Shown piece after piece: positions 49,827 to 56,457 of a stretch of 64,000 nucleotides of DNA. A model generated the notes under the pieces. That model saw only the letters and a list, made by a program, of their open reading frames with translations, made no database searches and was not told the DNA's origin. Every line of letters begins with the position of its first letter. Within the stretch, counting starts at the first letter, position 1. The stretch lies in assembly GCA_947086655.1 (NCBI GenBank), contig CAMTZM010000002.1:1-64000 (forward strand). Reading direction: 5' to 3'. The position numbers and the translations under genes were made by a program. Origin of the DNA: an uncultured Eubacteriaceae bacterium (GTDB lineage Bacteria; Bacillota; Clostridia; Lachnospirales; CAG-274).

Positions 49827-50988
49827 TCACGGAAACAGGATTTACTTTTTTGCACCAAAAAGAATGCTCAATAAAACTTCAGGATTAAGAGCAGCTTTGA
49901 ACATCATTTTTTTGCTTATGCGTCCGTACTGTGCTTGTGTAACAAGAGAAAGTGCTGTTTTACGTAAAACATTCATATTTAACGGTGAATTATCTTTTCT
50001 TACTCTTGAACTATCTTCTAAAAATATTACATCTAAACACCAATGAAGCTGATTTTCTATAGACCAATGTTTTCTCGCAGAATATGCAAATTCATTAATA
50101 TCTGTTAATGATGTTATAAAATATCTCGTATATTCGCTTTTTTTATCATCTTCATATATTGTTGATTTGACTGCACCTATACTTTGTAATCCTTTCCAGT
50201 CCTTTTTTTGTTCAAGCCACGAAATGTCCCTGAGAAGTCTGTATTCTCGTTTTTCTATCCTTCCGTGTCCTTTGTCATATGTTTTAATACACGGCAGTTC
50301 CTTCTTAAATTCTAAAAAATAATTATCAACATCTTTATACAATATAGGCTGATTACTTTTTAATCCTATAGTATAATCTGCTTTTCCATCAATGATTTTT
50401 TTGACAATTTTTTTCTGACAACTCATCGCATCCGCTGTTATTATTGCTCCTTCTACATCTATTAAATTGAGTAATTCCGGAACTGCTGTTATTTCATTTG
50501 TTTTTTCTTCAACTGCTAATTCTCCCAATGTTATTTGATTTTCCGCTACAAATGCACTTATAACATGATACGCCTTATGTTCTTTATTTCCACTTCCACA
50601 GATTGTTTTTCCATCTAATCCAATAACACAACGTTTTTGACGCTCGATTTCAATCCAATTTGCCAAACATCTTGAAAGTTCCGATGGAACAAGTTTTTCA
50701 AATAAACGTCTGAATGTATCGCTGTCCGGTATACCGTTTGGAAGTTCAAGAAAATTTCGTAAAAATTCTTCACGTTCTATGCCGAATTCCTCCATATCGG
50801 CATAATCTTCACCGCCGCATATTATAGTACATAAACCAATAATTATTATATCTTCAAGTTTATGTCGGATATTTCCGTACTCTGTTCTTCTTGGGTCATT
50901 TATGTTTTTTATCTCTTCTTTTAATTTTTCTATTTTCATATTTTTATCTTATATTATTTTTCTAAAAAAGTAAATGCTGTTGTCATGA
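49827..50988 (-). mobile_element. ISAs1-family insertion sequence
   Basis: Imperfect terminal inverted repeats of about 25 bp: left TCACGGAAACAGGATTTACT (49827 on) and right, read inverted, TCATGACAACAGCATTTACT (ending 50988), both continuing into a T-run. They enclose one full-length transposase gene whose stop codon lies inside the left repeat. No clear target-site duplication was found by eye. Confidence 0.8.
49842..50939 (-). CDS. ISAs1-family DDE transposase
   Basis: 365 residues, apparently intact. The N-terminal DDE_Tnp_1-associated domain (INDPRRTEYGNIRHKLEDII, DYADMEEFG, GIPDSDTFRRLF) is followed by the catalytic domain with acidic residues in IGLDGKTICGSG, AIITADAMSCQKKI and WSIENQLHWCLDVIF. 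Encoded opposite to the defence operon on its right. The intact frame and clear ends suggest a fairly recent insertion. Confidence 0.92.
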   Translation of the reverse strand: MKIEKLKEEIKNINDPRRTEYGNIRHKLEDIIIIGLCTIICGGEDYADMEEFGIEREEFLRNFLELPNGIPDSDTFRRLFEKLVPSELSRCLANWIEIERQKRCVIGLDGKTICGSGNKEHKAYHVISAFVAENQITLGELAVEEKTNEITAVPELLNLIDVEGAIITADAMSCQKKIVKKIIDGKADYTIGLKSNQPILYKDVDNYFLEFKKELPCIKTYDKGHGRIEKREYRLLRDISWLEQKKDWKGLQSIGAVKSTIYEDDKKSEYTRYFITSLTDINEFAYSARKHWSIENQLHWCLDVIFLEDSSRVRKDNSPLNMNVLRKTALSLVTQAQYGRISKKMMFKAALNPEVLLSILFGAKK

Positions 50989-51064: not shown

Positions 51065-52135
51065 ATGGAATTTATGTCAGCAAAAGAGGCTGCTAATAAA
51101 TGGGGAATATCACAACGGCGTGTTGCTGTTCTTTGTTCTGAAAACAGAATTACAGATGCGGCTATGGTTGGAAATATGTGGATTATTCCTGATACTGCCA
51201 AAAAGCCTGAAGATGCAAGAAGTAAAAAGTATATAATGAATGACGATAAAATTATAAAGCCTTTTTTAAAATGGGCAGGTGGAAAAGGACAGCTTTTAAA
51301 GGAAATTGAAAAATATTATCCTTTTGACAGCAAGGCTATAAAAAAATATGCAGAACCTTTTGTCGGAGGGGGAGCAGTATTGTTTGATATTTTGAATAAA
51401 TATAACTTGGAAGAAGTTTATATAAGTGATATAAATTTTGAACTTATTAATACTTATTATACTATTCGAGATAAAATTGACGAGCTTATTAATTTACTGT
51501 CAGTCTATCAGTCAGAATATGTTTCACTTGAAACAGAATTGCGAAAAAAGTATTATATTGAAAAAAGAGAACGCTTTAATTATTTAAAAATTAATGGTGA
51601 TGAAAACGTAGATATAGAAAAAGCCTCGCTTATGATTTTTTTGAATAAAACTTGTTTTAACGGCTTATTTCGTGTGAATAGAAAAGGGTTATTTAATGTA
51701 CCTATGGGTGCATATAAAAATCCTCTTATATGTGATGAAATAAATCTTCGCTTAGTATCGGAAAAATTAAAAAATGTAAATATCGTTTGCGATGATTATA
51801 AAAAATCGGCTGATTTTATTGATAAACATACTTTTGTGTATTTTGATCCTCCGTACAGACCTTTGACAGAAACAGCAAATTTTACGGCTTATACGGAGGA
51901 ATTGTTTAATGATGACGAACAAATTACCCTTGCACGTTTTGCCGATGAAATAACTAATAAAGGGGCAAAAGTTCTTATTAGTAACTCAGATCCTAAAAAT
52001 ATGGATATTTCTGATGATTTTTTTGATAATATTTATTCTGAGTATAAAATCAAAAGAGTTGGGGCTAACCGTATTATTAATTGTAAAAGTGAAGCAAGAG
52101 GAAAAATTAAAGAACTTTTAATTTCAAACTTTTAA
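51065..52135 (+). CDS. Dam/DpnM-like adenine methyltransferase with N-terminal HTH
   Basis: 356 residues from the ATG at 51065, 7 nt after AGGAG. Residues 1-55 are a small helix-turn-helix-like module (MSAKEAANKWGISQRRV, NRITDAAMVGNMWIIP). The rest is a D12-class alpha-group N6-adenine methylase: motif X KPFLKWAGGKGQLL (65-78), motif I EPFVGGGAVLFD (97-108) and catalytic D261-P-P-Y. The predicted site is GATC, from similarity to DpnM/Dam and from the adjacent DpnII-type nuclease. DpnM is about 285 residues, so the extra N-terminus is a real addition that could bind DNA or autoregulate the operon. First gene of the accessory operon. Confidence 0.92.
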   Translation: MEFMSAKEAANKWGISQRRVAVLCSENRITDAAMVGNMWIIPDTAKKPEDARSKKYIMNDDKIIKPFLKWAGGKGQLLKEIEKYYPFDSKAIKKYAEPFVGGGAVLFDILNKYNLEEVYISDINFELINTYYTIRDKIDELINLLSVYQSEYVSLETELRKKYYIEKRERFNYLKINGDENVDIEKASLMIFLNKTCFNGLFRVNRKGLFNVPMGAYKNPLICDEINLRLVSEKLKNVNIVCDDYKKSADFIDKHTFVYFDPPYRPLTETANFTAYTEELFNDDEQITLARFADEITNKGAKVLISNSDPKNMDISDDFFDNIYSEYKIKRVGANRIINCKSEARGKIKELLISNF

Positions 52136-52148
52136 GGATGAAAATTTT

Positions 52149-52325
52149 ATGCCGTATACTATAAAAGCAAAATGTCCATGCTGTAATAAAGAAGCTGATG
52201 GATTAAAAGAAATAGATGAAAAATTTGGGTGGAGAATACCTAATGATAAAACAATACCCCAATCATATTGCAGAAAATGTCGTGCTGCTCATTGTAAAGC
52301 AGGAGAACCTTGCAAAGTGAAATGA
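52149..52325 (+). CDS. 58-residue cysteine-rich microprotein in the restriction operon
   Basis: Short gene with AAGGATG before the ATG at 52149, 13 nt after the methylase stop. It encodes 58 residues: KCPCCNKEADGL near the start, KFGWRIPNDKTIPQSY in the middle and YCRKCRAAHCKAGEPCKVK at the end. The seven cysteines include CPCC and C-x2-C-x4-C-x5-C, strongly suggesting a zinc-ribbon. It sits between methylase and nuclease genes in the same operon, so a regulatory or nuclease-associated role is inferred; I know of no assigned function. Confidence 0.75.
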   Translation: MPYTIKAKCPCCNKEADGLKEIDEKFGWRIPNDKTIPQSYCRKCRAAHCKAGEPCKVK

Positions 52326-52335
52326 GGTTGAATAT

Positions 52336-53199
52336 ATGAAAAATAGAAATTTTAATGATTGGCTATCGTATTTTCGCAATAGTATAGCGGATTATGGATA
52401 TTATATTGATTTTGAAAAAGTTCACAATAATGTGAACAATATAAAAGTTGAACTTAATATACTTAATTCTTTGATAGGTTCGAAAAATATTGAGAAGGAT
52501 TTTAAAAATTTGATTGCTGAATATCCTAAAGTAATAAAGTGTATACCTCTGCTTTTAGCAGTTAGAGCAAATGAAATATATGCTATTGATGAAGATGGTG
52601 CTTTTAAATATAATTTTAAAGAGCCTAATCTTTCGGTTGAACAATATAAAGTATTTATGCGAAAAACAGGATTATTTGATTTAATACAAAATCATATTAT
52701 AAGTAATCTTGTTGATTATGCAACAGGTGTTGAAACCGGTCTTGATTCAAACGGCAGAAAAAATCGTGGCGGTCATCTTATGGAAAATTTAGTTGAGAAT
52801 TTTATTAAAAAAGCCGGATTTATTAAAGATAAAAATTATTTCAAAGAAATGTATATTCATCAGATTACAGAAAAATGGGAAATTGATTTATCAGCTATTT
52901 CCAATCAGGGCAAATCTGAAAAGCGTTTTGACTTTGTTGTAAAAACTGATAATATGATATATGGTATTGAAACTAATTTTTATACAGGCGGCGGTTCTAA
53001 ACTTAATGAAACAGCAAGAAGTTATAAACAGATTGCCGGGGAATGTAAGGATATTGCTAATTTTACATTTGTATGGTTTACTGATGGGAAAGGCTGGACA
53101 AGTGCAAGACATAATCTTGAAGAAACTTTTGATGTTATGGAACATATTTACTCTATTAACGATTTGGAGAATGGTATAATAAAAGAGGTTTTTAAATAA
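52336..53199 (+). CDS. DpnII-family type II restriction endonuclease (GATC)
   Basis: 287 residues, almost exactly the length of R.DpnII. Family blocks: FNDWLSYFRNSIADYGYYIDFEKV at the N-terminus, GLDSNGRKNRGGHLMENLVE in the middle, and the nuclease core KWEIDLSAI ... KRFDFVVKTD ... YGIETNFYTGGGSKLNE. The core resembles PD-(D/E)xK with E-x-N in place of E-x-K, as in this family. It should cut unmethylated GATC and be blocked by the upstream methylase. Its stop overlaps the next start by 1 nt (TAATG). Confidence 0.93.
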   Translation: MKNRNFNDWLSYFRNSIADYGYYIDFEKVHNNVNNIKVELNILNSLIGSKNIEKDFKNLIAEYPKVIKCIPLLLAVRANEIYAIDEDGAFKYNFKEPNLSVEQYKVFMRKTGLFDLIQNHIISNLVDYATGVETGLDSNGRKNRGGHLMENLVENFIKKAGFIKDKNYFKEMYIHQITEKWEIDLSAISNQGKSEKRFDFVVKTDNMIYGIETNFYTGGGSKLNETARSYKQIAGECKDIANFTFVWFTDGKGWTSARHNLEETFDVMEHIYSINDLENGIIKEVFK

Positions 53200-53948
53200 T
53201 GAAGGAAAAGAAAATAAATAAATGGGAGCCGGAAAACTTTGAACTTGAAATGACTACACATTGGTCTTTTCCAAATCGTGGAGATTGGGCAACTCACGAT
53301 GCAAAATGGCATGGAAATTGGTCGCCGTACATACCAAGAAATATTATATTAAGGTATTCACAAGAAGGCGACTTGGTTCTTGATCAGTTTGCCGGAGGAG
53401 GTACTACACTTGTTGAAGCAAAGCTTCTAAATCGTGATATAATTGGTGTAGATGTTAATGAAACTGCATTAGAACGCTGTCGGGAAAAAGTTGATTTTGA
53501 TTATAAACTGGCTAAAGGCAAAGTATATATTAAAAAAGGTGATGCGAGAAATCTTGATTTTATACCTGATGAAAGTATAGATTTAATTTGTACTCATCCT
53601 CCTTATGCCAATATTATTCAATATAGTGAAAATATAGAGGAAGATATATCCCGTTGTAAAATACCTGAGTTTCTTGGTGAAATGAAAATGGTAGCATCAG
53701 AAAGTTATCGGGTTTTAAAAAAGGATAAATTTTGTGCTGTCCTTATGGGTGATACAAGGTAAAAAGGACATATGATTCCTATGTCTTTTGATGTAATGAA
53801 AACTTTTCAAGAAGTTGGATTTAAGTTGAAAGAATTGATTATAAAGGAACAGCATAATTGTACGGCAACTGGTTATTGGAAAACAAATAGTGTGAAATAT
53901 AATTTTTTATTGATTGCACACGAATGTTTGTTTGTATTTAGAAAGTGA
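53199..53948 (+). pseudogene. Second DNA methyltransferase, interrupted by one in-frame stop
   Basis: The frame opens at 53199 and runs to a TAA at 53760-53762, then continues in the same frame for 61 codons (KGHMIPMSFDVMKTFQEVGF ... LLIAHECLFVFRK) to TGA at 53946-53948. The whole is about 249 codons. Visible motifs: THWSFPNRGDW, NWSPYIPRNIILRYS, motif I LDQFAGGGTTLVEA, GVDVNETALERC, and motif IV CTHPPYANIIQYS. It is not DpnA-like; the I-then-IV order and short length fit a COG0863-type N4/N6 methyltransferase. The sense continuation after the stop indicates a recent nonsense change, most simply AAA to TAA. The truncated product keeps motifs I and IV but loses the C-terminal strands. Confidence 0.85.
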
Positions 53949-53955
53949 GGATAAA

Positions 53956-55404
53956 ATGCAAGAAGATAAAATACCAAAAATATTCATATCATATTCGTGG
54001 AGCAGAGATGATATAGTTTTACCATTAGCAGAACGCTTAGTTTCGCATGGTGTAGAAGTTGTTTTAGATAAGTGGGAATTAAAAGATGGTCAAGATAAAT
54101 ATGCTTTTATGGAACAGTGTGTAACTGACCCTAATATTGATAGAGTTTTAATTATCTGTGATAAGTTATATACTGAGAAAGCTAACAATAGAGAGGGTGG
54201 TGTTGGCGATGAAACTGTAATTATTTCTCCTGAAATGTATGGTCACGAAAAACAAGAAAAGTTTATACCAATAGTAGCAGAACATGACGAAAATGATGAA
54301 CCTTATTTGCCAGCATATCTAAAAACTAGAATTTACATTGATTTATCTAATGATACGGAATTTGAGGTGGGATATGAAAAGCTTTTGCGAAATATATATG
54401 AAAAACCCCTATTTAAAAAACCGAAATTAGGAAGTAAACCAGAATGGTTAGAAGATGAAACTAATTATTTTCTTATAAGAGATTTAATAAAACAGATAAA
54501 AGGTGCTTTCAATAAAAGAAAACAAGAAATATTAATTCAAAAATTTATAGCACAATATATTGAAAATATGAAACAATATTATAATAAGAATATTAAAGAT
54601 GCCAGAGAAGTTTTCAATAAATTTATAGAAACTAAGGTTATAAGAGATGTTTTTTTGGATTTTTTAGATGTTATTATAGAGTTAGATATCGAAATAGGCG
54701 ATTTATTATGTAATATTTTTGAAACCTTTTATAATACTTTGATTTATACTAAAACATATTCAAATTCATCTTCATGTAAAGATTATGAATTTGATGTATA
54801 TAAATGTTATATATGGGAATTATTTATATGCACAGTTACCTTTTTAAGATATTATAAAGAGTATGGTATACTTAACTGCATTTTAAGTAATACATATTTT
54901 CTTAGATTTACACCTTTAGATGATGAATTAACAGCTGCTAATTATTCAAAATTTAGACATTACAGCAGAATAATTGAGGAATATTATAAACCAACAACTG
55001 AGAAAAAGAATAAATATACTTTATTAGGTGATGTTATTTGTCATGAAAGAGAAAAAAAACCAATTTATACAACTGAAACCTTGGCTCAAGCTGATTTATT
55101 TCTACATCAGGTTTTTAATGCACTGAATTTAAAGGTAAATGAACGATATTATTTTTACAATTCACGTTGGTTTCCTACTTGTTATATCTATACAGAAGAG
55201 GGAGTAACCGAATGGATAAAAATGAAATCTAAAAGGTATTGTGAAAAAATGTTTGTATTATTTGGTGTTTCAAATGTTAGCGATTTAAAACAAGCTATAG
55301 CAAATTGTGCTACTAATAAAGATATTAGATACAGTGATTGCTACTATACTGCTCCGTCAATTTTAAGTTGTATAAAACTTGAAGAAATAGGAAGTATGAA
55401 TTAA
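53956..55404 (+). CDS. SEFIR-domain protein, candidate anti-phage effector
   Basis: 482 residues from the ATG at 53956, just after AGTGAGGA and 7 nt past the methyltransferase stop; an earlier in-frame ATG at 53914 lies inside that gene. Residues 7-150 are a SEFIR domain (TIR superfamily): IFISYSW at 9-15, AERLVSHGVEVVLDKWELKD at 25-44, DRVLIICDKLYTEKAN and ETVIISPEMYG. SEFIR proteins are reported single-gene anti-phage systems thought to act by NAD+ depletion. Residues 160-482 are a Lys/Tyr-rich, mostly helical region I do not recognise, presumably the sensor. There is no membrane span. Placement at the end of a restriction operon supports a defence role. Confidence 0.85.
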   Translation: MQEDKIPKIFISYSWSRDDIVLPLAERLVSHGVEVVLDKWELKDGQDKYAFMEQCVTDPNIDRVLIICDKLYTEKANNREGGVGDETVIISPEMYGHEKQEKFIPIVAEHDENDEPYLPAYLKTRIYIDLSNDTEFEVGYEKLLRNIYEKPLFKKPKLGSKPEWLEDETNYFLIRDLIKQIKGAFNKRKQEILIQKFIAQYIENMKQYYNKNIKDAREVFNKFIETKVIRDVFLDFLDVIIELDIEIGDLLCNIFETFYNTLIYTKTYSNSSSCKDYEFDVYKCYIWELFICTVTFLRYYKEYGILNCILSNTYFLRFTPLDDELTAANYSKFRHYSRIIEEYYKPTTEKKNKYTLLGDVICHEREKKPIYTTETLAQADLFLHQVFNALNLKVNERYYFYNSRWFPTCYIYTEEGVTEWIKMKSKRYCEKMFVLFGVSNVSDLKQAIANCATNKDIRYSDCYYTAPSILSCIKLEEIGSMN

Positions 55405-55927: not shown

Positions 55928-56004
55928 AAAATCACCTTTCTGATATAATAACTGATATAATAAGGTTGTTCAAGCCAAAATTATATAAGAAGAAAGGTGA
56001 TTTT
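55928..56004 (+). promoter_or_regulatory. RBS-sequestering inverted repeat of IS200 tnpA
   Basis: AAAATCACCTTTCT (55928-55941) is the exact complement of AGAAAGGTGATTTT (55991-56004), which contains the tnpA ribosome binding site AAAGGTG; the ATG follows at 56006. In IS200 a 5' leader structure is known to hide the tnpA ribosome binding site, and this arrangement fits that mechanism. Confidence 0.75.
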
Positions 56005-56005
56005 A

Positions 56006-56457
56006 ATGGCAAATAAAGCAAACAGTTTATCGCACACAAAGTGGTTATGTAAATATCACATAGTATTTACTCCAAAATATAGAAGAAAAATAATATACAA
56101 TCAGTATCAAGTTTGCATGATATAATAAAACAGCTATGTGCATATAAAGGTGTGGAAATAATAGAAGGACATATGATGCCTGACCATGTACATTTGCTTT
56201 TAAGTATTCCACCCAAAATAAGTGTATCACAATTTATGGGATACCTCAAGGGTAAAAGTTCACTAATGATGTTTGATAAACATGCAAATTTAAAATATAA
56301 ATTTGGGAACAGACATTTTTGGGCAGAGGGATATTATATAAGTACAGTAGGGCTTAATGAGGCAACAATAAAGAAATACATACAAGAACAAGAAAAACAT
56401 GATATAGCGATGGACAAATTAAGTGTAAAAGAATATGAAGACCCCTTTAGGGGTTAG
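56006..56457 (+). pseudogene. tnpA: IS200 transposase TnpA, frameshifted
   Basis: From 56006 the first frame reads MANKANSLSHTKWLCKYHI and continues through PKYRRKIIYNQ, then runs into a stop after CMI. A second frame takes over at about 56106 (SSLHDIIKQLCAYKG) and continues to the normal end at 56457. The second part has the HUH motif in MPDHVHLLLSI and the catalytic tyrosine region ATIKKYIQEQEKHD. The join lacks part of the residues expected there, so a small deletion with frameshift has probably inactivated the gene. The right half alone cannot give active TnpA. Confidence 0.85.

Follow-up and report, generated by a model that had tools for sequence, protein, structure and literature searches.

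The window, by which we mean the whole 64,000-nucleotide stretch of DNA analysed, carries between the methylase and nuclease genes of a DpnII restriction-modification operon a 58-codon microgene that our data confirm as a real, conserved and selected gene. The sequence of its product suggests a protein that probably binds zinc through its CPxC and CxxC pairs, and its relatives recur beside DNA methylase genes both in DpnII operons and away from them. We tentatively propose, at rather less than even confidence, that it is a small zinc protein which binds nucleic acid, serves modules of DNA-adenine methylation and is translated by coupling between the methylase and nuclease genes.

The microgene and its operon

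The preliminary description of this DNA had reported a 58-residue frame with CPCC and YCRKC-x4-C-x5-C motifs, preceded by a good ribosome binding site and located inside a restriction operon. Translation of 52149-52325 bears the frame out: the product has seven cysteines, with CPCC at residues 9-12 and YCRKC-x4-C-x5-C at residues 40-55. A Shine-Dalgarno-like TAAGGATG stands about 10 bases 5' of the ATG and is overlapped by the methylase stop, and the genes on the two sides, a D12 methylase and a DpnII nuclease, both score over their Pfam cut-offs, placing the microgene in a DpnII restriction-modification operon. The features concerned are the following.

51065-52135, forward strand: Dam-type (D12) adenine methyltransferase, 356 aa (PF02086, E = 2.7e-60)
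52133-52148, forward strand: methylase stop overlapping the ribosome-binding site of the microgene, a coupling geometry (from the sequence and the intergenic gaps)
52149-52325, forward strand: gene of the 58-aa putative zinc microprotein, phrog_19700 family (open reading frame, phrog_19700 match at E = 5.7e-15, homologues, selection)
52336-53199, forward strand: DpnII-family restriction endonuclease, 287 aa (PF04556, E = 6.2e-112)
53199-53948, forward strand: second methyltransferase, N6_N4 class, with an in-frame TAA at 53760-53762 (PF01555, E = 1.6e-20)

The gene order in the window is D12 methylase, 58-aa frame, DpnII nuclease, second methylase and TIR/SEFIR gene. The TGA of the microgene overlaps the GAGG that precedes the nuclease ATG, and in DpnII operons with an adjacent D12 gene the gap from methylase to microgene is 12-28 nt. 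The N-terminus of the D12 methylase gives a weak helix-turn-helix match (HTH_59, 0.0043), which is below cut-off. Relatives of the second methylase are single uninterrupted frames of about 248 aa that match both halves of the window copy, so that the latter is probably a copy broken by the TAA. The 482-aa TIR/SEFIR protein (53956-55404) lies 3' of the restriction genes, and the restriction/TIR block is bracketed by a DDE_Tnp_1 transposase (49842-50939; presumably ISAs1-like) and a presumably IS200-like transposase encoded by two frames that overlap (55997-56457). The presence of transposase genes on both flanks suggests that the block is a mobile defence island.

A chance open reading frame was rejected on the basis of purifying selection and shuffle controls. 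Among the 51 window frames of 45-75 aa, one has at least seven cysteines and one has the CPxC...CxxC motif; 40 first-order Markov shuffles of the window yielded 2000 frames of that length, with at least seven cysteines in 2 and the motif in 0. The dN/dS ratio is 0.03-0.23 in 14 close homologue pairs with dS < 0.7 (dS was usable in 66 of 231 pairs and saturated in 165), and in the Firmicute-type relatives the differences fall mostly on the third codon position (0.18, 0.12 and 0.46 for the first, second and third). The preliminary description had named the absence of homologues from all other DpnII operons, with no purifying selection on the frame, as its refutation; homologues do occur in other such operons, selection is evident and the microgene is not refuted. 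Its remark that the gene is too short for most gene callers applies to the Escherichia coli F829 copy, which is unannotated in RefSeq, and fails for a Providencia copy, which is annotated. The idea of a microprotein often overlooked by gene callers fits in part. The annotation of the 60-aa Providencia plasmid copy (L004, 5001-5183) as 'hemagglutinin' (WP_140172924.1) looks like a misnomer.

Distribution within and beyond DpnII operons

A tblastn search with the peptide returned 23 plasmid records and 4 Klebsiella phage records, and a scan of a genome contig collection gave 26 loci found by sequence alone. A DpnII-type nuclease gene adjoins the microgene in 16 of these 26 genome loci, in hosts that range from Ruminococcus and Selenomonas to Brachyspira, Desulfovibrio and Oxalobacter, and 20 have a D12 methylase no more than 1 kb away. 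Residues C9, P10, C12, F26, G27, R29, Q38, S39, C41, C44 and R45 are invariant over 26 diverse rows, a constancy that is partly imposed by the search since the scans used parts of the core motifs. The superfamily core reads CPxC...FGxR...QSxCRxCR. By sequence comparison the four-cysteine site is the core of the family, because the window protein has three further cysteines that some relatives (L025, L048, L051) do not share. The window protein matches phrog_19700 over residues 1-50 (on 1-52 of 60), and two copies from P2-like prophages match the same family at 9e-42 and 7e-44, while Pfam, NCBIfam and PADLOC gave no family over cut-off for the window protein. Literature searches, which included peptide strings and the PHROG number, returned nothing on the microprotein or on its association with adenine methylation. 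The family has already been binned as a PHROG, its association with DNA-adenine methylation not having been found in print.

The microprotein is rare, as judged from the matches of the A2 profile in 2 of 398 genomes of the phylum and 9 of 345 in the order of genome G445, and of the P0001 profile in 1 of 48 genomes of the family. It is also optional in DpnII operons. A DpnII match was present in 22 of the 398 phylum genomes, and the two with the microprotein, one of them the source genome of the window, are both among those 22. In 20 DpnII stretches from 19 genomes, counted with the source genome excluded and G173, G144 and a third G076 fragment left out, the microprotein was present in 1 and absent from 19; the sole positive stretch (L083) has a microprotein identical to that of L016, on a contig of equal length, and is probably the same locus. 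Genome G076 holds an operon with the microprotein (L083) and another without it (L085), and a Fusobacterium operon of 73% DNA identity is without it. In two further operons (L030, L031) the microgene is frameshifted and the methylase and nuclease frames are kept, an observation that assembly error could partly explain in both cases. Since most DpnII stretches and the Fusobacterium operon do without the microgene and two operons carry it frameshifted, the DpnII nuclease and methylase do not seem to need the microprotein. In several operons (L012, L013, L014, L015, L018, L021) a gene of about 180 aa stands between microgene and DpnII gene; it is a PDDEXK_11 gene where scanned (L012, L010), and in L010 it replaces DpnII.

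These data bear directly on two of the roles that had been suggested for the protein. An obligatory cofactor of the DpnII nuclease would account for a microgene that adjoins the nuclease gene and is coupled to it, yet the protein is missing from 19 of 20 DpnII stretches and from the Fusobacterium operon, is frameshifted in two operons that keep the nuclease, and is present at loci without DpnII; this role is highly improbable. A regulator that acts on the transcription or translation of the nuclease gene, and so stands in for a controller protein by means of a zinc-finger fold, would suit the position between methylase and nuclease genes, the overlaps of stops with ribosome sites and the strict conservation, and we nevertheless consider it quite unlikely. 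No helix-turn-helix family matched the microprotein, whose predicted model has helices at 18-25 and 42-46 only; relatives are found without a DpnII gene (L009, L145, L155) and by themselves on mobile elements; there may be a helix-turn-helix in the window methylase, although the match is weak; and most DpnII operons examined are without the microgene. The antitoxin-like control that had also been put forward is not supported.

After clustering at 75% identity, 76 loci, a set that excludes repeat fetches of the same places (e.g. L001, L045, L046, L083, L134-L144), formed 36 clusters, and in 15 of them a gene for a DNA methylase or a methylase-like protein is found within 1 kb. Eight of these 15 are outside DpnII operons (L009/L010, L025, L027, L048, L145, L146, L153, L155). 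A D12 methylase stands beside the microgene without DpnII in L009, in L010 (with Mrr and PDDEXK_11 nucleases), in L145 (with two D12 genes) and, together with GmrSD-type genes, in L025 and L027; in L155 a phage Dam gene (PF05869) adjoins the microgene, and in L048 the neighbouring methylase is on the opposite strand. A 175-aa methylase-like gene with an FLEPCRG motif adjoins the microgene in L146 (5240-5767) and L153 (5297-5824) and matches methylase families only below the Pfam cut-off. The viral contig L051 has Dam, an N6/N4 methylase, a four-cysteine version of the microprotein and DpnII. Proximity by chance is unlikely, because the source genome has only one full-length D12 methylase in 2.79 Mb. 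The remaining 21 clusters, which include the plasmid copies, the P2-like prophage group and a short MSGSIKLP group, have no methylase within 1 kb. Across 13 operons the Mantel rho of microprotein versus methylase is 0.42, a weak value, versus 0.71 for methylase and nuclease.

In P2-like prophages the microgene lies between gpA and gpQ, a hotspot described by Rousset et al. (PMC9122126) as a reservoir of anti-phage systems. Of 5426 E. coli genomes, 1264 have a segment from just upstream of the microgene, and 17 have a place that covers at least 80% of a 680-base query which includes the microgene. In one of the 17, E. coli F829, the microgene and a gene for an 89-aa protein are the only genes between the DinI-like and portal genes. 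A protein of 89-94 aa is encoded directly 3' of the microgene in L028, L029, L036-L044, L046 and L050; it belongs to phrog_1090 where scanned (L028) and is missing in L034, L035 and L049. A D12 gene is present in 15 of the 17 records or genomes of P2-like type, and the two without it are fragments, 4 and 10 kb long. We dropped a link between dam and the microgene in these prophages: dam is core there, and its presence is uninformative because all 7 prophages without the microgene also carry it.

The prophage data raise the alternative of cargo in its own right, such as a small gene for anti-phage defence or counter-defence, that is met with restriction systems simply because both occupy the same defence islands and cargo slots. 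In its favour, the microgene and its 89-aa neighbour alone fill the place between the DinI-like and portal genes in F829, in the 7 prophages that lack the microgene the same place contains either nothing or different genes (AAA ATPase, TIGR02391, DUF262, ParA plus SIR2 or similar), and a TIR gene is near the microgene in L011 and downstream of it in the window. The tight coupling within the operon and the recurrence of methylase neighbours outside DpnII operons speak against it, and we regard it as unlikely. Much the same low probability is given to a restriction-alleviation or anti-restriction protein of mobile elements, similar to lambda Ral or Lar, that was captured by some restriction operons and protects the host until methylation has caught up. 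The copies that stand alone, on plasmids and in the cargo slot of P2-like prophages, would be in line with such an origin, as would the matches of L051 to the Lar-like phrog_599 (0.018), of L158 to Pfam Lar (0.045) and of L154 to the Lar-like phrog_5558 (1e-4). Ral provides a precedent, being a protein of 67 aa that accelerates the modification of unmodified DNA (PMC12707154). The window protein, on the other side, has no NCBIfam match at E up to 1, hence is not TIGR03655, and no PF14354 match at E up to 1; a profile comparison with three Lar-like rows gave a probability of 1.4 over 11 columns, and the common part may be just the CPxC knuckle. The NCBIfam search and the profile comparison thus give no support for placing the microprotein in the Lar family.

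The probable zinc module and the proposed role

The predicted model of the microprotein (mean pLDDT 82, pTM 0.55) has a beta hairpin around the first cysteine pair, and its second helix starts at the second pair. The fold may be called treble-clef-like, a name that is our reading of the model. The 'zinc-ribbon' of the preliminary description is upheld as far as a probable zinc module is concerned and is better described as a treble-clef-like one, related to HNH-type zinc modules. Foldseek returned nothing at E 0.001 against PDB or against BFVD, where the best match (0.014) is a Klebsiella phage copy of the microprotein family, and the best relative of solved structure found by sequence had E 0.13. 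Hpy99I is the sole aligned structure with Z > 2, a weak match (Z 2.9, rmsd 3.0, 43 aligned residues), and the distant relative L154 matches phrog_2255 HNH endonuclease (7e-6) and phrog_1035 endonuclease VII (1.5e-5). No alignment column has histidine in half of the 26 rows, and with no histidine conserved the microprotein is not itself a nuclease of the HNH or His-Me finger type. Fusions place the module behind a DnaD_N winged helix in L158 and behind PAPS-reductase-type domains in L032 and L159.

According to the methylase-partner reading that we propose, the microprotein would be a stand-alone zinc module of the kind appended in HNH and endonuclease VII-type proteins, with no catalytic site. 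It would bind DNA or a DNA-methylase complex, and this binding may tune the methylation side of the module and shift the balance of methylation against cleavage. It could, for instance, assist the methylase in acting on DNA that is unmodified or newly arrived or, alternatively, hold cleavage back until methylation is complete. Lone plasmid and prophage copies could do the same job with a methylase of the host or of the element. We count in favour of this reading the DpnII adjacency, the D12 proximity, the 15 of 36 clusters, the low dN/dS and the invariant core, as well as the fold model, the HNH matches of L154, the Hpy99I alignment and the one DnaD_N winged helix fusion. Counted against it are the 21 clusters without a near methylase, the core status of dam in P2-like prophages, the sub-cut-off methylases of L146 and L153, the opposite strand in L048, the Mantel rho of 0.42, the motif-imposed invariance and the fact that the search started from a restriction operon.

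A broader and doubtful extension is that such zinc microproteins form a widespread class, often left unannotated, of dedicated trans-acting partners of several classes of adenine methyltransferase (D12 Dam, phage Dam PF05869, N6/N4). They would consist of an HNH zinc module without catalytic site and would serve restriction systems, plasmids, prophages and solitary methylases in steering methylation versus cleavage. Type II restriction systems are usually seen as complete with a methylase, a nuclease and at most a controller; a conserved and coupled zinc microprotein that is also found beside methylases without DpnII and in a defence cargo slot would supply a part so far missing from the account of how elements weigh methylation against cleavage. 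Should the microgene prove to be cargo with no such link, it would still point to a small gene, as yet unstudied, in an established anti-phage hotspot.

Comparison with known systems

In type II restriction systems the controller (C) proteins have a helix-turn-helix; they share with our microgene the status of a small gene in a restriction operon, whereas the microprotein has no helix-turn-helix match. Lar and Ral are similar in being small, carried on mobile elements and linked to restriction-modification, and Lar has a CPxC knuckle, but the window protein is without a family-level match to them. To phrog_19700 the match is significant and covers most of the window protein; it is a phage family without function, and its record has no link to restriction operons or methylases. 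The zinc modules of HNH proteins, endonuclease VII and Hpy99I have the same CxxC...F...CxxC layout, L154 matches the two endonuclease families and the fold match to Hpy99I is weak; the microprotein differs in having no conserved histidine and no nuclease domain and in consisting of the module alone. With the DpnII system the window operon shares the D12 methylase, the DpnII nuclease and the second methylase. The order differs: we take that of the streptococcal system to be dpnM-dpnA-dpnB, without the microgene, and in the window it is methylase, microgene, nuclease and second methylase, the last of them interrupted.
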